NCBI GenBank assembly: GCA_016185275.1
Contig: JACPNX010000038.1
Coordinates: 1-64,000, forward strand
DNA: 64,000 nucleotides
Origin: Actinomycetota bacterium
Lineage (GTDB): Bacteria > Actinomycetota > Acidimicrobiia > Acidimicrobiales > Iamiaceae
Direction of reading: 5' to 3'
Made by a program: the position numbers and the translations under genes. The notes beneath the pieces were generated by a model that was not told where the DNA came from, searched no databases, and worked only from the letters and a program-made list of their open reading frames with translations. Positions 57,344 to 64,000 of the stretch are shown here, piece by piece; the first letter of the stretch is position 1; each line of letters opens with the position of its first letter.

Positions 57344-58303
57344 ATGCGATCGGCCGTGCTGCTCCATCTCACCTCCGAACGGGTGCCGTCCCAGCTCGCC
57401 GTCGGGCGCCTCACCACCGTCGTGCCCAGCGAGGTGCTGGCCATGGCGACGGTCGGGGAGATCCTCGAGACGGTCGAGCACACACCGGGCTGCGTGGGGC
57501 TCCTCCCGGTCGAGGACTCCTTCGAGGGCGAGGACACCGCGGTGCTCGACCGGCTCGTGTTCGAGACGTCCGGGGTGTTCGTGTGCGAGGAGGTGGTCGT
57601 CTCCGAATCGCTCGGCGCCTTCCGGCTCCGCGCCGAGACGCCCGAGCAGCTGCGCACCGCCGTGAGCCACCCCCGCGCCATCGAGCACTCGCACCGGTTC
57701 GTGCGCGAGCACGGTCTGGCCACCCGCTTCGTCGGCTCCATCGACGAGGCCTGCAAGCTGGTGGCCGAGTCGGGCGACCCGACGCTCGTCGCGCTGGCGC
57801 CGTCCGATGCCGCCGAGCGGGCCGGTCTGGTCCCGGTGGCGACGTCCGTGGTGGACGTGCCCGACGCCCGGACGCGGCTCTTCCTCGTGAGCCAGGACGT
57901 CGCCGAACCGACCGGGCGGGACAAGACCACGCTGGTGCTGACCCAGCCCACCGACCGGTCGGGCAGTCTCGTGCGCTACCTGCAGGCGTTCTCCGCTCAC
58001 GACGTGAACCTCGTCAGCCTCCACAGCCGGCCCATCGCGCGCGCGGCCGGCTCCTACTGCTTCCTCGCCACCGCCGAGGCCCACGTCCACGACGCCACCA
58101 TGCGCGGCGCCATCGAGGCGCTGTGGGAGGCCGGCGCCCACATCAAGCTGCTCGGGTCGTACCCCGAGTGGGAGGGGGAGCAGGTGCTGGCGCCGTTCGA
58201 CGTCGCCCCGCTGGCGTCGGTGGGTCCGGACTCGCCGGATGAGGCGCGGTCGCGGCTCCTGCGCGCGGACGGCGCTCCGGCGCCAGCCGGGTCGCGCACC
58301 TGA
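57344..58303 (+). CDS. Degenerate prephenate-dehydratase-like protein with ACT domain
   Basis: 319 aa, colinear with the PheA encoded directly downstream but changed at key points. The opening Y-L-G-P-E-G-T-F is absent (V-L-L-H-L-T-S-E-R here), the P-I-E-N-S box is P-V-E-D-S, and the catalytic T-R-F is T-R-L. The C-terminal ACT domain is well kept (D-K-T-T-L-V-L, S-L-H-S-R-P, S-Y-C-F-L). It probably lacks normal dehydratase activity and may be a regulatory partner of PheA or have a new substrate. The gene pair overlaps in function and is 10 nt apart. Confidence 0.75.
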   Translation: MRSAVLLHLTSERVPSQLAVGRLTTVVPSEVLAMATVGEILETVEHTPGCVGLLPVEDSFEGEDTAVLDRLVFETSGVFVCEEVVVSESLGAFRLRAETPEQLRTAVSHPRAIEHSHRFVREHGLATRFVGSIDEACKLVAESGDPTLVALAPSDAAERAGLVPVATSVVDVPDARTRLFLVSQDVAEPTGRDKTTLVLTQPTDRSGSLVRYLQAFSAHDVNLVSLHSRPIARAAGSYCFLATAEAHVHDATMRGAIEALWEAGAHIKLLGSYPEWEGEQVLAPFDVAPLASVGPDSPDEARSRLLRADGAPAPAGSRT

Positions 58304-58313
58304 GCAGGCGCCG

Positions 58314-59168
58314 GTGACCGTCGTCGAGTACCTCGGGCCGGAGGGCACCTTCGCCCACGCCGCCACCGACCTCCTGCGCACGGTGGGCCACGACGGCCCC
58401 GCGCCCTCGGTGGACCTCGTCCCGCGAGCCACCGTGGCCGAGATCATCCACGACGTCGACGACGGTCGCTGCGACCACGGGCTGGTGCCCATCGAGAACT
58501 CCGTGGACGGCGGCGTCACCGGCACCATCGACGTCCTCGTGTTCGAGACGGAACGGGTGCGCCTCCGCGAGGAGGTCGTCGTGCCGGTGTCGTTCGGCGC
58601 GCACCGCCGCGCCGAGTTCGCCGACCAGCCGATGACCACCGTGCTCAGCCATCCCGTCGGCCTGGCCCAGTGCCGGCGCTTCGCGGCCCGTCACGGCCTG
58701 GACGTGCGGTCGACCGACTCCACCGCCGAGGCGTGCCGCGCCGTCGCCGCCTCGGCCGATCCGGGCCTCGTCGCGGTCGCCTCGGCCAAGGCCGCGGCGC
58801 TGGCCGGACTCGTCACGGTCGAGCACGGCGTCGAGGACCATCCCGGTGCATCGACGCGCTTCGCGCTCGTGTCGTGCGCGGGCGTCGGGCCCACCGGCGA
58901 CGACAAGACCACGATCGTCGTGATCCCGCCCTCGGAAGGCGTCGGTGTGCTGCTCGGCATCCTCCAGCCCATCTCCGAGGCCGGCGTGAACATCTCGAAC
59001 ATCACCAGCCGGCCGCTGCGGCCGCGTCTGGGCGAGTACTGCTTCGTGCTCACCCTCGACCGCCACGAGACCGACCCGGGGGTCGTCGAGGCGCTGGCCC
59101 GGCTGCGGGGTTCGGGCTGCACGGTGCGCCCCCTCGGCTCGTATCCCGCGTGGCGGGGCGAGCGGTGA
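58314..59168 (+). CDS. pheA: Prephenate dehydratase
   Basis: 284 aa; converts prephenate to phenylpyruvate. Y-L-G-P-E-G-T-F near the N-terminus, L-V-P-I-E-N-S-V-D-G-G-V, and catalytic T-R-F in A-S-T-R-F-A-L-V. The ACT domain (about 200-280) with N-I-S-N-I-T-S-R-P is the phenylalanine feedback site (the E-S-R-P box reads T-S-R-P). GTG start; stop overlaps tyrA (GTGA). Confidence 0.94.
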   Translation: MTVVEYLGPEGTFAHAATDLLRTVGHDGPAPSVDLVPRATVAEIIHDVDDGRCDHGLVPIENSVDGGVTGTIDVLVFETERVRLREEVVVPVSFGAHRRAEFADQPMTTVLSHPVGLAQCRRFAARHGLDVRSTDSTAEACRAVAASADPGLVAVASAKAAALAGLVTVEHGVEDHPGASTRFALVSCAGVGPTGDDKTTIVVIPPSEGVGVLLGILQPISEAGVNISNITSRPLRPRLGEYCFVLTLDRHETDPGVVEALARLRGSGCTVRPLGSYPAWRGER

Positions 59169-60298
59169 CCCGGCCACGCCGCGAGCCCGGTGTCGACGCA
59201 AGCCCCGGTGCGAGCCTGCCGACGCTCGGTCTCGTCGGCCTGGGTCTGATCGGCGGCTCGGTGGCGCGCCGCTGGCGGGCCGAGGGCGGTGAGGTCGTCG
59301 GCTACGCCCGGAGTACCGCGACGCGCGCGGGTGCCGGCCGGGCCGGGGTGTGGCTGGCCGACTCAGTGGCCGAGGTGGTGGGCGCGGCCGACATCGTCGT
59401 CCTCGCGGTGCCGCTTCCGGCCCTGGCGGAGGTGCTCGACCAGGTGGCGCTGGCGGTGAGCGAGCTCGACGACACGCCCACCATCACGGACGTCGGCTCG
59501 GTCAAGGGACCGATCGCGCTGCGGGCCCGGCGGGTGCTGCCCCAGCCGTCGGTCTTCGTACCCGGCCACCCGATGGCCGGCACCGAGGACGCCGGCTGGG
59601 AGGCATCCGACGAGGCGCTGTTCGAGGCCACCACGTGGGCCCTCGCCGTCGACGAGCCGGTCGACCTGGACCGCTGGGTGGCGGTCGCCCGGCTCGTCCT
59701 GGCACTGGGCGCACGGGTCGTCCCGGTGGCCGTCCACGATCACGACGAGGCGGTGGCCCTCACCAGCCACCTGCCTCACGTGTTCGCCGCGGAGCTGGCG
59801 GGGCGGGTTGCCGGTGAGCCGCTCGCGGCTGCGCTGGCCGGCGGATCGTTCCGTGACGCCACCCGCGTCGTGCGGGGCACGGCCTCGGGCCTGGGCGCCG
59901 AGCTGGTCTGGGCCAACCGGGGCGACGTCGCGGAACGTCTCGACGGCCTCGTGGCCGACCTGGCCGGGCTGCGCGACGCGCTGCGGGCCGACGACGAGGG
60001 AGCGGTGCGCGCGCTGTTCGCGGCGCCGGCCGGCGCCGGGGTCGACGCGTCCGGCGTCGACGCGTCCGGGGTCGACGCGACCGGGGTCGACGCCACCGGG
60101 GTCGAGGCGAGCGAGCTCGAGCCCGTCGAGCTTCCGCTGGAACGCGGAGCCCTCCTCGCGCTGGGCCGGCGCGGCGGGCGGGTGGTCGGCATCGTGGAGC
60201 GGCGTCCGGGACCGTACGCGGGGGGCGGCGGGCCCGCTGGGCACCACGGGCCGGCGGACACGACCGTGCTGGCGGCGGCCCCCAGGGCTGTCCGATGA
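59165..60298 (+). CDS. tyrA: Prephenate dehydrogenase
   Basis: 377 aa; NAD(P)-dependent oxidative decarboxylation of prephenate (or arogenate) toward tyrosine. Rossmann L-V-G-L-G-L-I-G-G-S-V, D-V-G-S-V-K, and G-H-P-M-A-G-T-E with the substrate-binding His. After residue 285 comes a 15-bp-repeat segment (G-V-D-A-S units) and a divergent C-terminus rather than a clear ACT domain. Coupled on both sides by 4-nt overlaps (pheA and dapC). Confidence 0.92.
   Translation: MTRPRREPGVDASPGASLPTLGLVGLGLIGGSVARRWRAEGGEVVGYARSTATRAGAGRAGVWLADSVAEVVGAADIVVLAVPLPALAEVLDQVALAVSELDDTPTITDVGSVKGPIALRARRVLPQPSVFVPGHPMAGTEDAGWEASDEALFEATTWALAVDEPVDLDRWVAVARLVLALGARVVPVAVHDHDEAVALTSHLPHVFAAELAGRVAGEPLAAALAGGSFRDATRVVRGTASGLGAELVWANRGDVAERLDGLVADLAGLRDALRADDEGAVRALFAAPAGAGVDASGVDASGVDATGVDATGVEASELEPVELPLERGALLALGRRGGRVVGIVERRPGPYAGGGGPAGHHGPADTTVLAAAPRAVR
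60038..60112 (+). repeat. 15-bp in-frame tandem repeat in tyrA (5 copies)
   Basis: Five copies of GGGGTCGACGCGTCC with variants, encoding G-V-D-A-S, G-V-D-A-T and G-V-E-A-S. Confidence 0.9.
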
Positions 60299-61416
60299 GC
60301 CGCTTCGAGCCGCCGCCGTTGGTCTGGGAGACGCTCGGCGACCTGCGGGCGCGGGCCGAGGCCCACCCGGGCGGACCGATCGACCTCACGATCGGCACCC
60401 CGGTCGATGCTCCGCCCCGGTTCGTGGTCGACGCGCTGGCGCGCTCGGGGACCGAGCGGGGGTACCCGCCGTCGATCGGGTCGGCCGCCTTCCGCGAGGC
60501 GGCCGCGGGCTGGATGCAGCGGCGGCTCGGCGTGGCCGTCGACCCGGCCCTCGTCGCCGCCACCATCGGGTCGAAGGAGCTGGTGGCCGGCCTGCCGCAC
60601 TGGCTGCGCCTCCGGGACCCCGGCCGCGACACCGTGCTGTTTCCCGCCACCAGCTACCCGACCTACGAGATGGGTGCCCGCCTGGCGTCGTGCCGCGCCG
60701 TCGCCGTGCCCCGCCGGCCCGACGGTGCCCTCGACCTCGACGCCGTGCCCGCCGCCGAGGCCGCTCGGGCCCTGTGCCTGTGGTCGAACAGCCCGGGCAA
60801 CCCGACCGGCCAGCTCGACGACCTGGCCGCAGCCGCGGCCTGGGGCCGCGAGCATGGAGTGCCGGTGCTGTCCGACGAGTGCTACGCCGAGCTCACGTGG
60901 TCGGGCCGGCCCCGCACCGTCCTCGAGCACGGCGTCGACGGCGTCCTCGCCGTGCACTCGCTGTCGAAGCGCTCGAACCTCGCCGGGGTCCGGGCCGGCT
61001 TCTACGCGGGTGACGCCGAGCTCGTCGCCTATCTGTCGCAGCTCCGCAAGCACGCCGGGTTCATGGTCCCCGGTCCCGTGCAGGCCGCCGCCGCGGCGGC
61101 GTTGGCCGACGACGACCACGTCGACGAGCAGCGGGCCCGCTACCGCGCCCGCCTGGAGGCGGCCGTCGCGGCGCTGCGCGCCCTCGGCCTCGGGGCCACG
61201 ATGCCCGGCGGGGCGTTCTACCTGTGGGTGCCGGCGCCCGCCGGCGACGGCGACGCGCTCACCCGCTGGTTCGCGTCCGCAGCCGGCGTCCTCGTCACCC
61301 CGGGCCGGACGTACGGGCCGGACGGCGCCGGCTTCGTGCGGCTCGCCCTCGTGCAGCCCGACGACGTCGTGGCGGATCTCGTCGAACGCCTCGGCGCGGC
61401 ACGGGGGCCCGCATGA
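60295..61416 (+). CDS. dapC: PLP aminotransferase, probable succinyl-diaminopimelate transaminase
   Basis: 373 aa fold I aminotransferase. Opening F-E-P-P-P-L-V-W-E-T-L-G-D-L-R-A-R-A-E-A-H-P-G-G-P-I-D-L-T-I-G-T-P-V matches actinobacterial DapC; S-N-S-P-G-N-P-T-G binds PLP, the Schiff-base Lys is in S-L-S-K-R-S-N-L-A-G-V-R. With dapD close downstream the succinylase route fits. It is coupled to tyrA, so a role as aromatic aminotransferase (phenylpyruvate/hydroxyphenylpyruvate) cannot be excluded. Confidence 0.82.
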   Translation: MSRFEPPPLVWETLGDLRARAEAHPGGPIDLTIGTPVDAPPRFVVDALARSGTERGYPPSIGSAAFREAAAGWMQRRLGVAVDPALVAATIGSKELVAGLPHWLRLRDPGRDTVLFPATSYPTYEMGARLASCRAVAVPRRPDGALDLDAVPAAEAARALCLWSNSPGNPTGQLDDLAAAAAWGREHGVPVLSDECYAELTWSGRPRTVLEHGVDGVLAVHSLSKRSNLAGVRAGFYAGDAELVAYLSQLRKHAGFMVPGPVQAAAAAALADDDHVDEQRARYRARLEAAVAALRALGLGATMPGGAFYLWVPAPAGDGDALTRWFASAAGVLVTPGRTYGPDGAGFVRLALVQPDDVVADLVERLGAARGPA

Positions 61417-61464
61417 GCGCGGCGCCCGCATGAGCGCCCAACCCGCACGGCGGCGCCGATGGAC

Positions 61465-61476: not shown

Positions 61477-62586
61477 GTGAGCCACGATCCGGATCAGGTG
61501 AGGCCGCGGGCACGCGCGTACCTCGTTCCCGTCGTCGTCTTCCTCGCCGCCACCACCATCGCCGTCGTGTTCCTCGTCAACGGCTTCACCGGATGGAAAC
61601 GCACGATCGACGGCCTGGCGCGGGTGCCGGTCCGGGGCGGGGGAGTCGTGAACTTCGACGAGCCGGGCGGTTACACGATCTTCTACGAGACCACCGGCGC
61701 TGAGCCCGCGTCCGTGGTGCTTGTGGCCATCACCCGAGTCGCGGACGGCCGGCTCGTACCGGTGCGGGGGTACGACAGCGGCAACAGCTACAACCTCAAC
61801 GGTCGGGAGGGCACGGCCATCAGGACCGTGCGGATACCGGCGGCCGGCCGCTACAGGGTGAGGGTCGAAGGGGTGAGCGTCGACGAGTTTTCGTCCGCCT
61901 CCCTGGCCATCGGCCGCAACCCCAACGGCGTCCTGGCGCGAGGCATCGGGTTGTTCGTGCTCGTCGGCGGGCTCGGATTCGTCGTCGGGCTCGTGCTGTC
62001 CATCGTGATCGGCGTCAAGCGTGGACGCAGCAAGCGCCGGATCCGCGCGGCCCAGCTGGGCGCCGCTGGAGGTCCCGCCTGGGCAGTGGCCGGGCCCGGG
62101 GGCCCGCCGGGCTACGCGACGCCGCCCGGCGACGGTGCTCCGCGGCCGGGCTACGGCGTCCCCGCGGTGGCCGGGGCGCCCGGCTACGGTGCCCCGCCGC
62201 CGTACGCCACCCCGCCCGGCTATGGGCCTCCGCCCGGCTACGGCGCTCCGCCGCCGTATGCCGCGCCGCCGCCCGGCTACGGCGCTCCGCCCGGCTACTC
62301 GCCGCCGCCCGGATACGCGCCGCCGCCTGGGTACGGCCCGCCCCCGGGTGTCGGTGCGCAACCGGCGTACGGCCCGCCCCCGGGTCCCACCCCACCCGAG
62401 GGCTCGTCGGGCGCAAGCGAGGCGACACCCTGGCCCGGCGCGCCGCGGAGCGGTCCGGGCTCGGCCGGGACGGATGTGCCGTGGGCTCCGCCCGGCCCGC
62501 CGCGGGGCGTGCTCCGTCCAGAAGGCGACCGGGGTCCTGGGGGCGACGCCGACCCGAACGGCAGCACCGCTTCGCCGCGCGACTGA
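61477..62586 (+). CDS. Membrane protein of unknown family, Pro/Gly/Tyr-rich tail (pair member 1)
   Basis: 369 aa. A first helix (about 15-36), an outer domain of about 110 residues rich in beta-strand-like segments (G-G-Y-T-I-F-Y-E-T-T-G, R-T-V-R-I-P-A-A-G-R-Y-R-V-R-V-E-G), a second helix (about 145-170, L-F-V-L-V-G-G-L-G-F-V-V-G-L-V-L-S-I-V-I-G-V), a basic patch, then about 180 residues of P-P-G-Y-G repeats. It resembles the next gene in layout. GTG 61477 is chosen over an ATG at 61459 by promoter spacing. No family is recognised. Confidence 0.75.
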   Translation: MSHDPDQVRPRARAYLVPVVVFLAATTIAVVFLVNGFTGWKRTIDGLARVPVRGGGVVNFDEPGGYTIFYETTGAEPASVVLVAITRVADGRLVPVRGYDSGNSYNLNGREGTAIRTVRIPAAGRYRVRVEGVSVDEFSSASLAIGRNPNGVLARGIGLFVLVGGLGFVVGLVLSIVIGVKRGRSKRRIRAAQLGAAGGPAWAVAGPGGPPGYATPPGDGAPRPGYGVPAVAGAPGYGAPPPYATPPGYGPPPGYGAPPPYAAPPPGYGAPPGYSPPPGYAPPPGYGPPPGVGAQPAYGPPPGPTPPEGSSGASEATPWPGAPRSGPGSAGTDVPWAPPGPPRGVLRPEGDRGPGGDADPNGSTASPRD

Positions 62587-63368
62587 TGACCGCTGCTCCG
62601 CCGCTCGCCATCTCCCGCCGGCCGCCGTCGATGCCGTCGGGATGGGGCTACGCAGGAGCGGTCGCGATGGCGGTCCTGGGCGTCGTCGCCCTCGTGATCA
62701 GCATCGTGATCGGCGTGGGCACGGCGCGCGACCGCCTCCGGGACCGCACCACGCTGGGACTCGGCCAGGAGGGGACCGTCACGGTCACCAGCCCGGCGGC
62801 GTACACCATCTACTACGTCGGTCCCGTCGTGGCCCGCTCCCGGGCCGATCTGCCGAGCCTGCGCAGCCGGCTGTCGCTCCGCATCAGCGGTCCCGACGGC
62901 GCCACGGTCCCCACTCGTCCCTACGAGGCCTGGAACGAGCGCTCGGCCGGCATGGGCCAGGCCGTCGCCGTGCGCACCGTGCGCTTCGCGTCGCGGGGCG
63001 ACTACCTCGTCCGGGTGGGCGGGCTGGAGGGCGTTCCCGACGAGGACGCATACGTGGCCTTCACCGAAAGCGGAGAAGGGGCGCTGGCGCGCTGGGCTCT
63101 CACCGGGGTCGCGGCCGCGGCGGTCGGCGTCGCGCTGGGGATCCTGTGGGCGATCCTCCTCGCCGGAGCGCGCCGCCGGGCGCAGCGGGCGGCGGGCGAG
63201 CCAGGGCCATGGGGACCACCCCCTGGTGGCGGGCCGCGAGCTCCGTGGCCGGGGCCGGCGGGGCCGCTTCCCGATGGCGTGGGCTGGGGACCCGCCGGCC
63301 CGGTCGTCGTGCCGCCGGTGCCGGCCGGCTACGAAGCGAGCCACGCCGGTTCGAGCCCGGGCCGGTAG
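62586..63368 (+). CDS. Membrane protein of unknown family (pair member 2)
   Basis: 260 aa. Helix one (about 22-45, G-A-V-A-M-A-V-L-G-V-V-A-L-V-I-S-I-V-I-G-V), outer beta-like domain with A-A-Y-T-I-Y-Y-V-G and R-T-V-R-F-A-S-R-G-D-Y-L-V-R-V-G-G matching the partner at equivalent places, helix two (about 165-188), basic patch, Pro/Gly-rich tail of about 60 residues. ATG overlaps the stop of the partner by one base (TGATG), so the two are made together and may form a complex. Confidence 0.75.
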   Translation: MTAAPPLAISRRPPSMPSGWGYAGAVAMAVLGVVALVISIVIGVGTARDRLRDRTTLGLGQEGTVTVTSPAAYTIYYVGPVVARSRADLPSLRSRLSLRISGPDGATVPTRPYEAWNERSAGMGQAVAVRTVRFASRGDYLVRVGGLEGVPDEDAYVAFTESGEGALARWALTGVAAAAVGVALGILWAILLAGARRRAQRAAGEPGPWGPPPGGGPRAPWPGPAGPLPDGVGWGPAGPVVVPPVPAGYEASHAGSSPGR

Positions 63369-63417: not shown

Positions 63418-64000
63418 GTGACCACCCCCCTTGAACCCGTTCCGGGCGTTGGCGGAGACTCCGCCGCCGGTGCGACCGCCGCGATGCCGGAGCCCGAGAC
63501 GGTGGGGCCGGAGTCACCGCCCCGGTCGTCCGATGGTCCCGGCGCGTGGGGCGTCGCCCTGGTCACGCAGGTCGCCGGAGGTGGGCCGGTGCTCGACGCC
63601 TGGTTCCCGATGCCGCGCCTCGGGCTCGACGCCGAGGGCCGGGCGCTGGCAACAGCGTCCGGTCTGCCCGGCGGCGAGTCGGCGTGGGCCACGGTCGAGG
63701 CGGCCGCGGCGGGTGCGGCGGTGGGTGTCGACCTCGCCGGCCTCGTCGGCGTGGACGAACGCCGCGGCGTCGAGGTGAGCGCGGCGGTGGCCGTCATCGC
63801 GTCGCTCGCCGACCCTCCGCTCGACGCCGTCGACGCCTACCTGCGCCTCCACCTGCTGTCGACCCGCCTGATCCGGCCGCACGGCTGCAACCTCGACGGT
63901 CTGTTCGGTGTGCTGAGCAACGTGGTGTGGACGTCCGCCGGTCCCTGCCCCGTCGAGGGGTTCGAGGCGACGAGGGGCCGGCTGGTCGCTTCGGGCCACC
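63418..64000 (+). CDS. dapD: Tetrahydrodipicolinate N-succinyltransferase, N-terminal part
   Basis: 194 codons, cut by the window end. After about 45 Pro/Glu-rich residues the sequence follows actinobacterial DapD: W-G-V-A-L-V-T, V-L-D-A-W-F-P-M-P-R-L-G, D-A-Y-L-R-L-H-L-L-S-T-R-L-I-R-P-H-G-C-N-L-D-G-L-F-G-V-L-S-N-V-V-W-T-S-A-G-P-C. The left-handed beta-helix with the active site is beyond the edge. It succinylates tetrahydrodipicolinate ahead of DapC. GTG start is set by the leaderless promoter. Confidence 0.88.
   Translation, partial: MTTPLEPVPGVGGDSAAGATAAMPEPETVGPESPPRSSDGPGAWGVALVTQVAGGGPVLDAWFPMPRLGLDAEGRALATASGLPGGESAWATVEAAAAGAAVGVDLAGLVGVDERRGVEVSAAVAVIASLADPPLDAVDAYLRLHLLSTRLIRPHGCNLDGLFGVLSNVVWTSAGPCPVEGFEATRGRLVASGH

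Follow-up and report, generated by a model that had tools for sequence, protein, structure and literature searches.

The window analysed in this study, a stretch of 64,000 nt from the family Iamiaceae of the order Acidimicrobiales (GTDB), carries two adjacent genes for membrane proteins, here named MemA and MemB. MemA (61477..62586, plus strand; 369 aa) starts with GTG at 61477, with an in-frame alternative ATG at 61459, and stops with TGA at 62584-62586. The ATG of its paralogue MemB (62586..63368, plus strand; 260 aa) occupies 62586-62588 and overlaps this stop codon by one base. A gene for succinyldiaminopimelate transaminase, dapC, is located 60 bp upstream of MemA (60295..61416, plus strand; TIGR03539 DapC_actino, E 2.5e-103, slightly under the cut-off). 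Downstream of the pair lies the start of dapD (63418..64000, plus strand; TIGR03535 DapD_actino above cut-off); this gene continues as far as position 64542 of the genome contig, and the next gene is dapE (TIGR01900 above cut-off). The coordinates and the NCBIfam matches of the neighbours agree with the initial annotation, which had described a one-base-overlap pair between dapC and dapD. Further upstream, two prephenate-dehydratase-like genes (57344-58303 and 58239-59168) stand in tandem before tyrA; the relatives L031-L034 and L038 likewise have both, and the second copy is 35-43% identical to the main copy of the window.

The two proteins share 32% identity over 107 aa (BLASTP, E 3e-8), and a search of the whole genome with MemA retrieved no paralogue other than MemB. 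Both display the previously described order of a first transmembrane helix (TM1), an outer beta domain, a second transmembrane helix (TM2), a basic patch and a Pro/Gly tail, which is rich in Tyr in MemA and short in MemB. The two sequence boxes reported for the pair were also recovered, as YTIFYE in MemA and YTIYYV in MemB, and as RTVRIPAAGRYRVRV and RTVRFASRGDYLVRV, respectively. An AlphaFold model of MemA built on a 16-sequence alignment (mean pLDDT 85.5) consists of a helix at residues 13-45, nine strands within residues 48-146 and a helix at residues 149-197. These correspond, on the plus strand, to TM1 (61513..61611), a predicted extracytoplasmic jelly-roll of residues 46-147 (61612..61917), and TM2 together with the basic patch KRGRSKRR (61921..62067). 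The outer domain is thus about 102 residues long in the model, slightly shorter than the 110 or so first proposed, and reached a pLDDT of 88.3 and a pTM of 0.82 when modelled alone.

The topology was deduced from the charges flanking the helices in 70 members of the family. On average, the net charge amounts to +2.0 on the N-terminal side of TM1 and +4.2 on the C-terminal side of TM2, against -0.6 and +0.1 on the flanks next to the domain. According to the positive-inside rule, this pattern places both the N- and the C-terminus in the cytosol with the jelly-roll outside between the two helices, an assignment that is well supported by computation. An independent sign comes from an Ilumatobacter-like branch (L085, L099, L103, L105, L111, L117, L118, L232, L234 and L236), whose outer domains possess a cysteine pair consistent with an extracytoplasmic disulfide; the pair is absent from MemA and MemB. 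The most strongly conserved columns of the outer domain hold Gly, Tyr/Phe and hydrophobic residues, in addition to one Arg (70%) and one Glu (58%), and no conserved residue set of a catalytic type was found in its alignment columns, which suggests a structural or binding domain rather than an enzyme. In relatives, both the domain (dN/dS 0.07-0.14) and the tail (0.11-0.46) behave as coding sequence subject to purifying selection; the tail evolves faster than the core yet remains constrained.

A family absent from annotation libraries

Judged from sequence comparison, MemA and MemB belong to a large actinobacterial family that is unnamed in Pfam, NCBIfam, PDB and the literature searched. The whole TM-domain-TM core matches our family profile A4 in both proteins (MemA, E 5e-52; MemB, E 9e-40); since both sequences are included in this profile, the independent link between them is the BLASTP match of MemB from MemA alone, given above. 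Matches were found in 20 of 61 genomes in a related-genome search. Profile searches recovered members from 53 of the 248 genomes covered for the order, 18 of 119 for the class and, at E<=1e-4, 57 of 396 for the phylum, the weakest of the last being uncertain; all genome counts are lower bounds because a first-look filter limits the sensitivity. Outside the order, members with E<1e-10 are distributed over about eleven families. Searches of the plasmid collection with MemA and with the SHOCT-tailed member discussed below found no relative.

The initial annotation knew of no described family covering the pair, and the Pfam, NCBIfam and PDB searches bear this out. Pfam, NCBIfam and, for 16 members, PADLOC returned only weak matches that were helix-driven or PPC-like; the profile search against PDB sequences and the fold searches gave no strong match to a characterised family, and literature searches retrieved no description of one. 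Several candidates were discarded: L023 and L030 are chance matches within peptidases, ACE/ACE2 and MHC chains in the profile search against PDB sequences are chance matches driven by the helices, and a defence role found no support in PADLOC, the only resource consulted for it. The family is a new entry for annotation across Actinomycetota, probably including mycobacteria.

Within this family, MemB is a duplicate. Its clade comprises seven sequences, all from the family of the window (SH-aLRT 100). MemA and MemB occur in tandem in five genomes (the window and L031-L034), and in L038 and L044 only MemB stands next to dapC, by which an obligate MemA-MemB pair is rejected. Together, the clade, the tandems and the lone copies point to one duplication with occasional loss instead of an obligate two-component unit. 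The original view of the pair as a unit is thus not sustained, as most relatives are single-copy. Other tandem pairs of family members were found in L168 and L228.

The best fold resemblances of the domain are to OX40L/TNF, C1q-type, CBM6, CBM27, collagen-binding and subtilase PPC-like domains, though no jelly-roll match reached E<0.001 with either the MemA model or the isolated domain. Three methods point weakly to PPC-like domains. With Pfam, 7 out of 70 relatives had weak PPC (PF04151) matches, the best at E 4.4e-4, and MemA and MemB had none; L146, for which alone the full score was displayed, obtained 16.9 bits where the cut-off is 25.9. In the profile search against PDB sequences, PPC-like domains appeared at E 0.011-0.026, and in the fold search subtilase PPC-like domains and the collagen-binding domains of ColG/ColH reached TM-scores of 0.39-0.48, none with E<0.001. 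The weak likeness to the PPC-like and collagen-binding-like jelly-rolls of the subtilases KP-43 and SubHal and of clostridial collagenases would lie in a small beta-sandwich with a G-x-Y strand motif. In those systems, however, the domain ends a secreted enzyme, whereas in MemA and MemB it is held between two membrane helices.

Linkage to dapC

Linkage was counted in loci of the order that had been found by family homology (L031-L050 and L141-L180) and include at least 1.5 kb of upstream DNA. The dapC gene lies upstream on the same strand in 34 of these 52 loci, with a gap of at most 150 bp in 32, although such counts are not independent events and the linkage may be inherited. In the closely linked loci the gap can be as short as a few bases and reaches about 150 bp at most; it exceeds 1 kb in L143 and L157, and no linked member is in opposite-strand arrangement with dapC. 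By comparison, dapD is found upstream of dapC (L036, L037, L039-L042 and L049), downstream on the opposite strand (L032-L034, L044 and L142) or downstream and co-directional as in the window. This variation leaves dapC as the constant partner, so that the conserved link to peptidoglycan-precursor genes suggested at the outset holds for dapC but not for dapD. As a separate observation near dapE, a mycosin-like subtilase gene (L050:10029-11390, genome contig C30, minus strand; TIGR03921 below cut-off) is located downstream of dapE in L050 and is followed by lexA.

Four loci of the order fetched later follow the same trend, with L232, L234 and L235 linked and L233 not; L236, too short to be judged, was left out of this count. 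No link to dapC was seen in the four loci from families of the same class outside the order (L228-L231), nor in any of 20 loci taken from other parts of the phylum. The distribution was also viewed from dapC itself, since a single-sequence pattern scan of the named genomes had returned no family member. A family gene is present at 14 of the best 80 dapC loci in these genomes, which are mostly labelled Acidimicrobiales, Acidimicrobiia or Actinomycetota. Such patchiness, seen also in the 53 of 248 genomes of the order, argues that the family is not needed for diaminopimelate synthesis.

The repeatable link to a wall-precursor gene within one order suggests that expression keeps pace with diaminopimelate, and hence with wall synthesis. 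The strongest rival to a functional connection is an operon passenger, that is, a general envelope or stress protein whose place behind dapC reflects ancestry and shared expression, without any functional relation to diaminopimelate. The absence of any common neighbour gene among members away from dapC would be expected of such a passenger, as would the way in which linked members cluster on the tree, where only about eight changes of the linked state are needed, in keeping with an inherited position; moreover, tyrA, dapC and the other dap genes are co-linear within the family of the window anyway. The link has, however, outlasted rearrangement of dapD, dapE and tyrA and divergence to about 20-30% identity, and its persistence through both argues for more than inheritance. 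We regard a passenger as rather unlikely, though it deserves more weight than the remaining alternatives, a tether of DapC and a channel.

Cytosolic tails

The predicted cytosolic tail of MemA (62068..62583, plus strand) is 173-180 aa long and rich in Pro, Gly and Tyr, with Pro and Gly making up 55% of the last 173 aa. The initial annotation gave about 180 residues of P-P-G-Y-G repeats, which agrees with the length of the whole tail; repeats of this type are confined to residues 207-312 or so (about 100 aa), and the rest is non-repetitive Pro/Gly/Ser sequence. A DNA motif for PGYGx(P/A) occurs seven times in the whole genome, five of them inside the MemA gene, and a reversed control gave no occurrence; a stricter PGYG pattern gave no matches. 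Similar tails are frequent in relatives: among the 46 complete members linked to dapC, 34 combine a tail length of 20 aa or more with a Pro+Gly content of 35% or higher, a count including a few duplicate rows because L051 and L143 are one locus. Other linked members possess Ser/Pro/acidic tails (L048 and L105). In the homologue L150 a Pro-rich stretch is at the N-terminus, still on the cytosolic side. The dapC-linked L146 and L158 display very long tails of 430 and 526 aa, respectively, that look helical or coiled-coil and are not Pro-rich.

Recognised domains replace the tail elsewhere in the family. SHOCT (PF09851) was found above cut-off at the C-terminus of L201, L203 and L205, and DUF2510 (PF10708) above cut-off at the end of the dapC-unlinked L164 and L170, which thereby resemble DUF2510 membrane proteins of Actinomycetota; a DUF2510-like motif of the type WYxDP..RYWDG was read by eye in L229-L231. 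Neither domain was detected by Pfam in MemA or MemB. In profile searches the SHOCT-tailed proteins match the TM - beta domain - TM core (E as low as 3e-19), but they have no Pro/Gly tail and no dapC, dapD or dapE nearby. Their shared neighbours include genes for an alcohol dehydrogenase, a metallo-beta-lactamase-fold protein and an Hsp70-like protein, with DUF3145 near L201 and L203, and from these we take the three loci to be probably mycobacterial. For the SHOCT domain itself a role in binding partners has been suggested, and the first time it was tested for oligomerisation the result was negative (PMC3581485).

Two further proteins of the genome of the window combine a MemA-like TM helix, basic patch and PPGYG repeats, presumably on the cytosolic side, with outer domains unrelated to that of MemA. 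One is lipoprotein-like (L227:919-1701; G000:C39 near 43434), with the basic patch RRSGKRKR, a MemA-like PGYG tail and no Pfam match. The other is a putative metallopeptidase (L221:3-1829; G000:C7 near 158616; DUF6782-like below cut-off), whose PGYG-rich N-terminal region lies beside RRRRSR and a TM helix. The PGYG tail is thus not specific to the function of MemA and, considering also the swapped modules, is a portable cytosolic element. The replacement of the Pro/Gly tail by SHOCT, DUF2510 or long helical regions favours an adaptor role over a condensate-specific one; condensate formation by the MemA tail is speculative.

The tails also bear on a second alternative, in which they would bind DapC (and DapD/DapE) and hold these enzymes at the membrane near later wall-precursor enzymes, as in a metabolon. 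The closeness of dapC as the fixed neighbour and the survival of this linkage through moves of dapD and dapE would suit such a tether. Yet the tails of linked members differ beyond recognition (Pro/Gly, acidic Pro/Ser or long helical), many Acidimicrobiales dapC loci lack a family gene, and homologues occur far from dapC; a tether is accordingly improbable.

Proposed role

Tentatively, and on less than even terms, we favour MemA and MemB as two-helix plasma-membrane adaptors whose jelly-roll binds the envelope and whose exchangeable tail recruits cytosolic partners, with co-expression alongside dapC. The jelly-roll would not catalyse but bind a ligand in the envelope, be it peptidoglycan, a different glycan or a protein; the tail may bring soluble partners to the place of this ligand on the membrane, and co-expression with dapC could couple the amount of adaptor to the supply of diaminopimelate and thereby to wall growth. 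MemA and MemB might then be specialised duplicates performing the same job with different tails. A constant outer domain of a binding type, combined with cytosolic modules that can be exchanged, is in keeping with an adaptor in the membrane or an envelope sensor, and module swapping (SHOCT, DUF2510, long helical regions) is the pattern expected of adaptors. A binding role is also supported by the resemblances in fold and profile, most of which are to binding domains (CBM6, collagen-binding, subtilase PPC-like and TNF/C1q). Counting against the adaptor reading are the patchy distribution, the lack of a dapC link outside the order and the PGYG tails on unrelated proteins. The cell-envelope scaffold guessed in the initial annotation would also be plausible.

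A more far-reaching version, a new class of envelope-to-cytosol coupling in which the jelly-roll would read the state of the wall and the low-complexity tail would cluster wall-precursor synthesis, including DapC, beneath it, has a slim chance of being right. On present evidence the MemA/MemB family is a well-bounded unknown, not a new kind of machinery. Very unlikely is an oligomeric two-helix channel or sensor resembling the PAC/TMEM206-type proteins, which also combine two helices with a beta-rich outer domain: human PAC is the best fold match of the whole model (E 4e-3, with several PAC/ASOR chains listed), but this whole-chain match is not significant (TM-score 0.28, 9% identity, rmsd 22.5), and PAC is missing from the matches listed for the outer domain alone, so that it rests largely on the shared two-helix layout.

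With its unchanging core and varied cytosolic parts (Pro/Gly tail, SHOCT or DUF2510), the family offers a natural series for learning the roles of such small cytosolic modules. A few members depart further from the common layout. The unlinked L152 and L156 possess an additional hydrophobic segment and an extra domain weakly similar to DUF6993, below cut-off, and in L218:1954-3753 a CAAX-type (Rce1-like) protease domain is joined to the family core in a single open frame.
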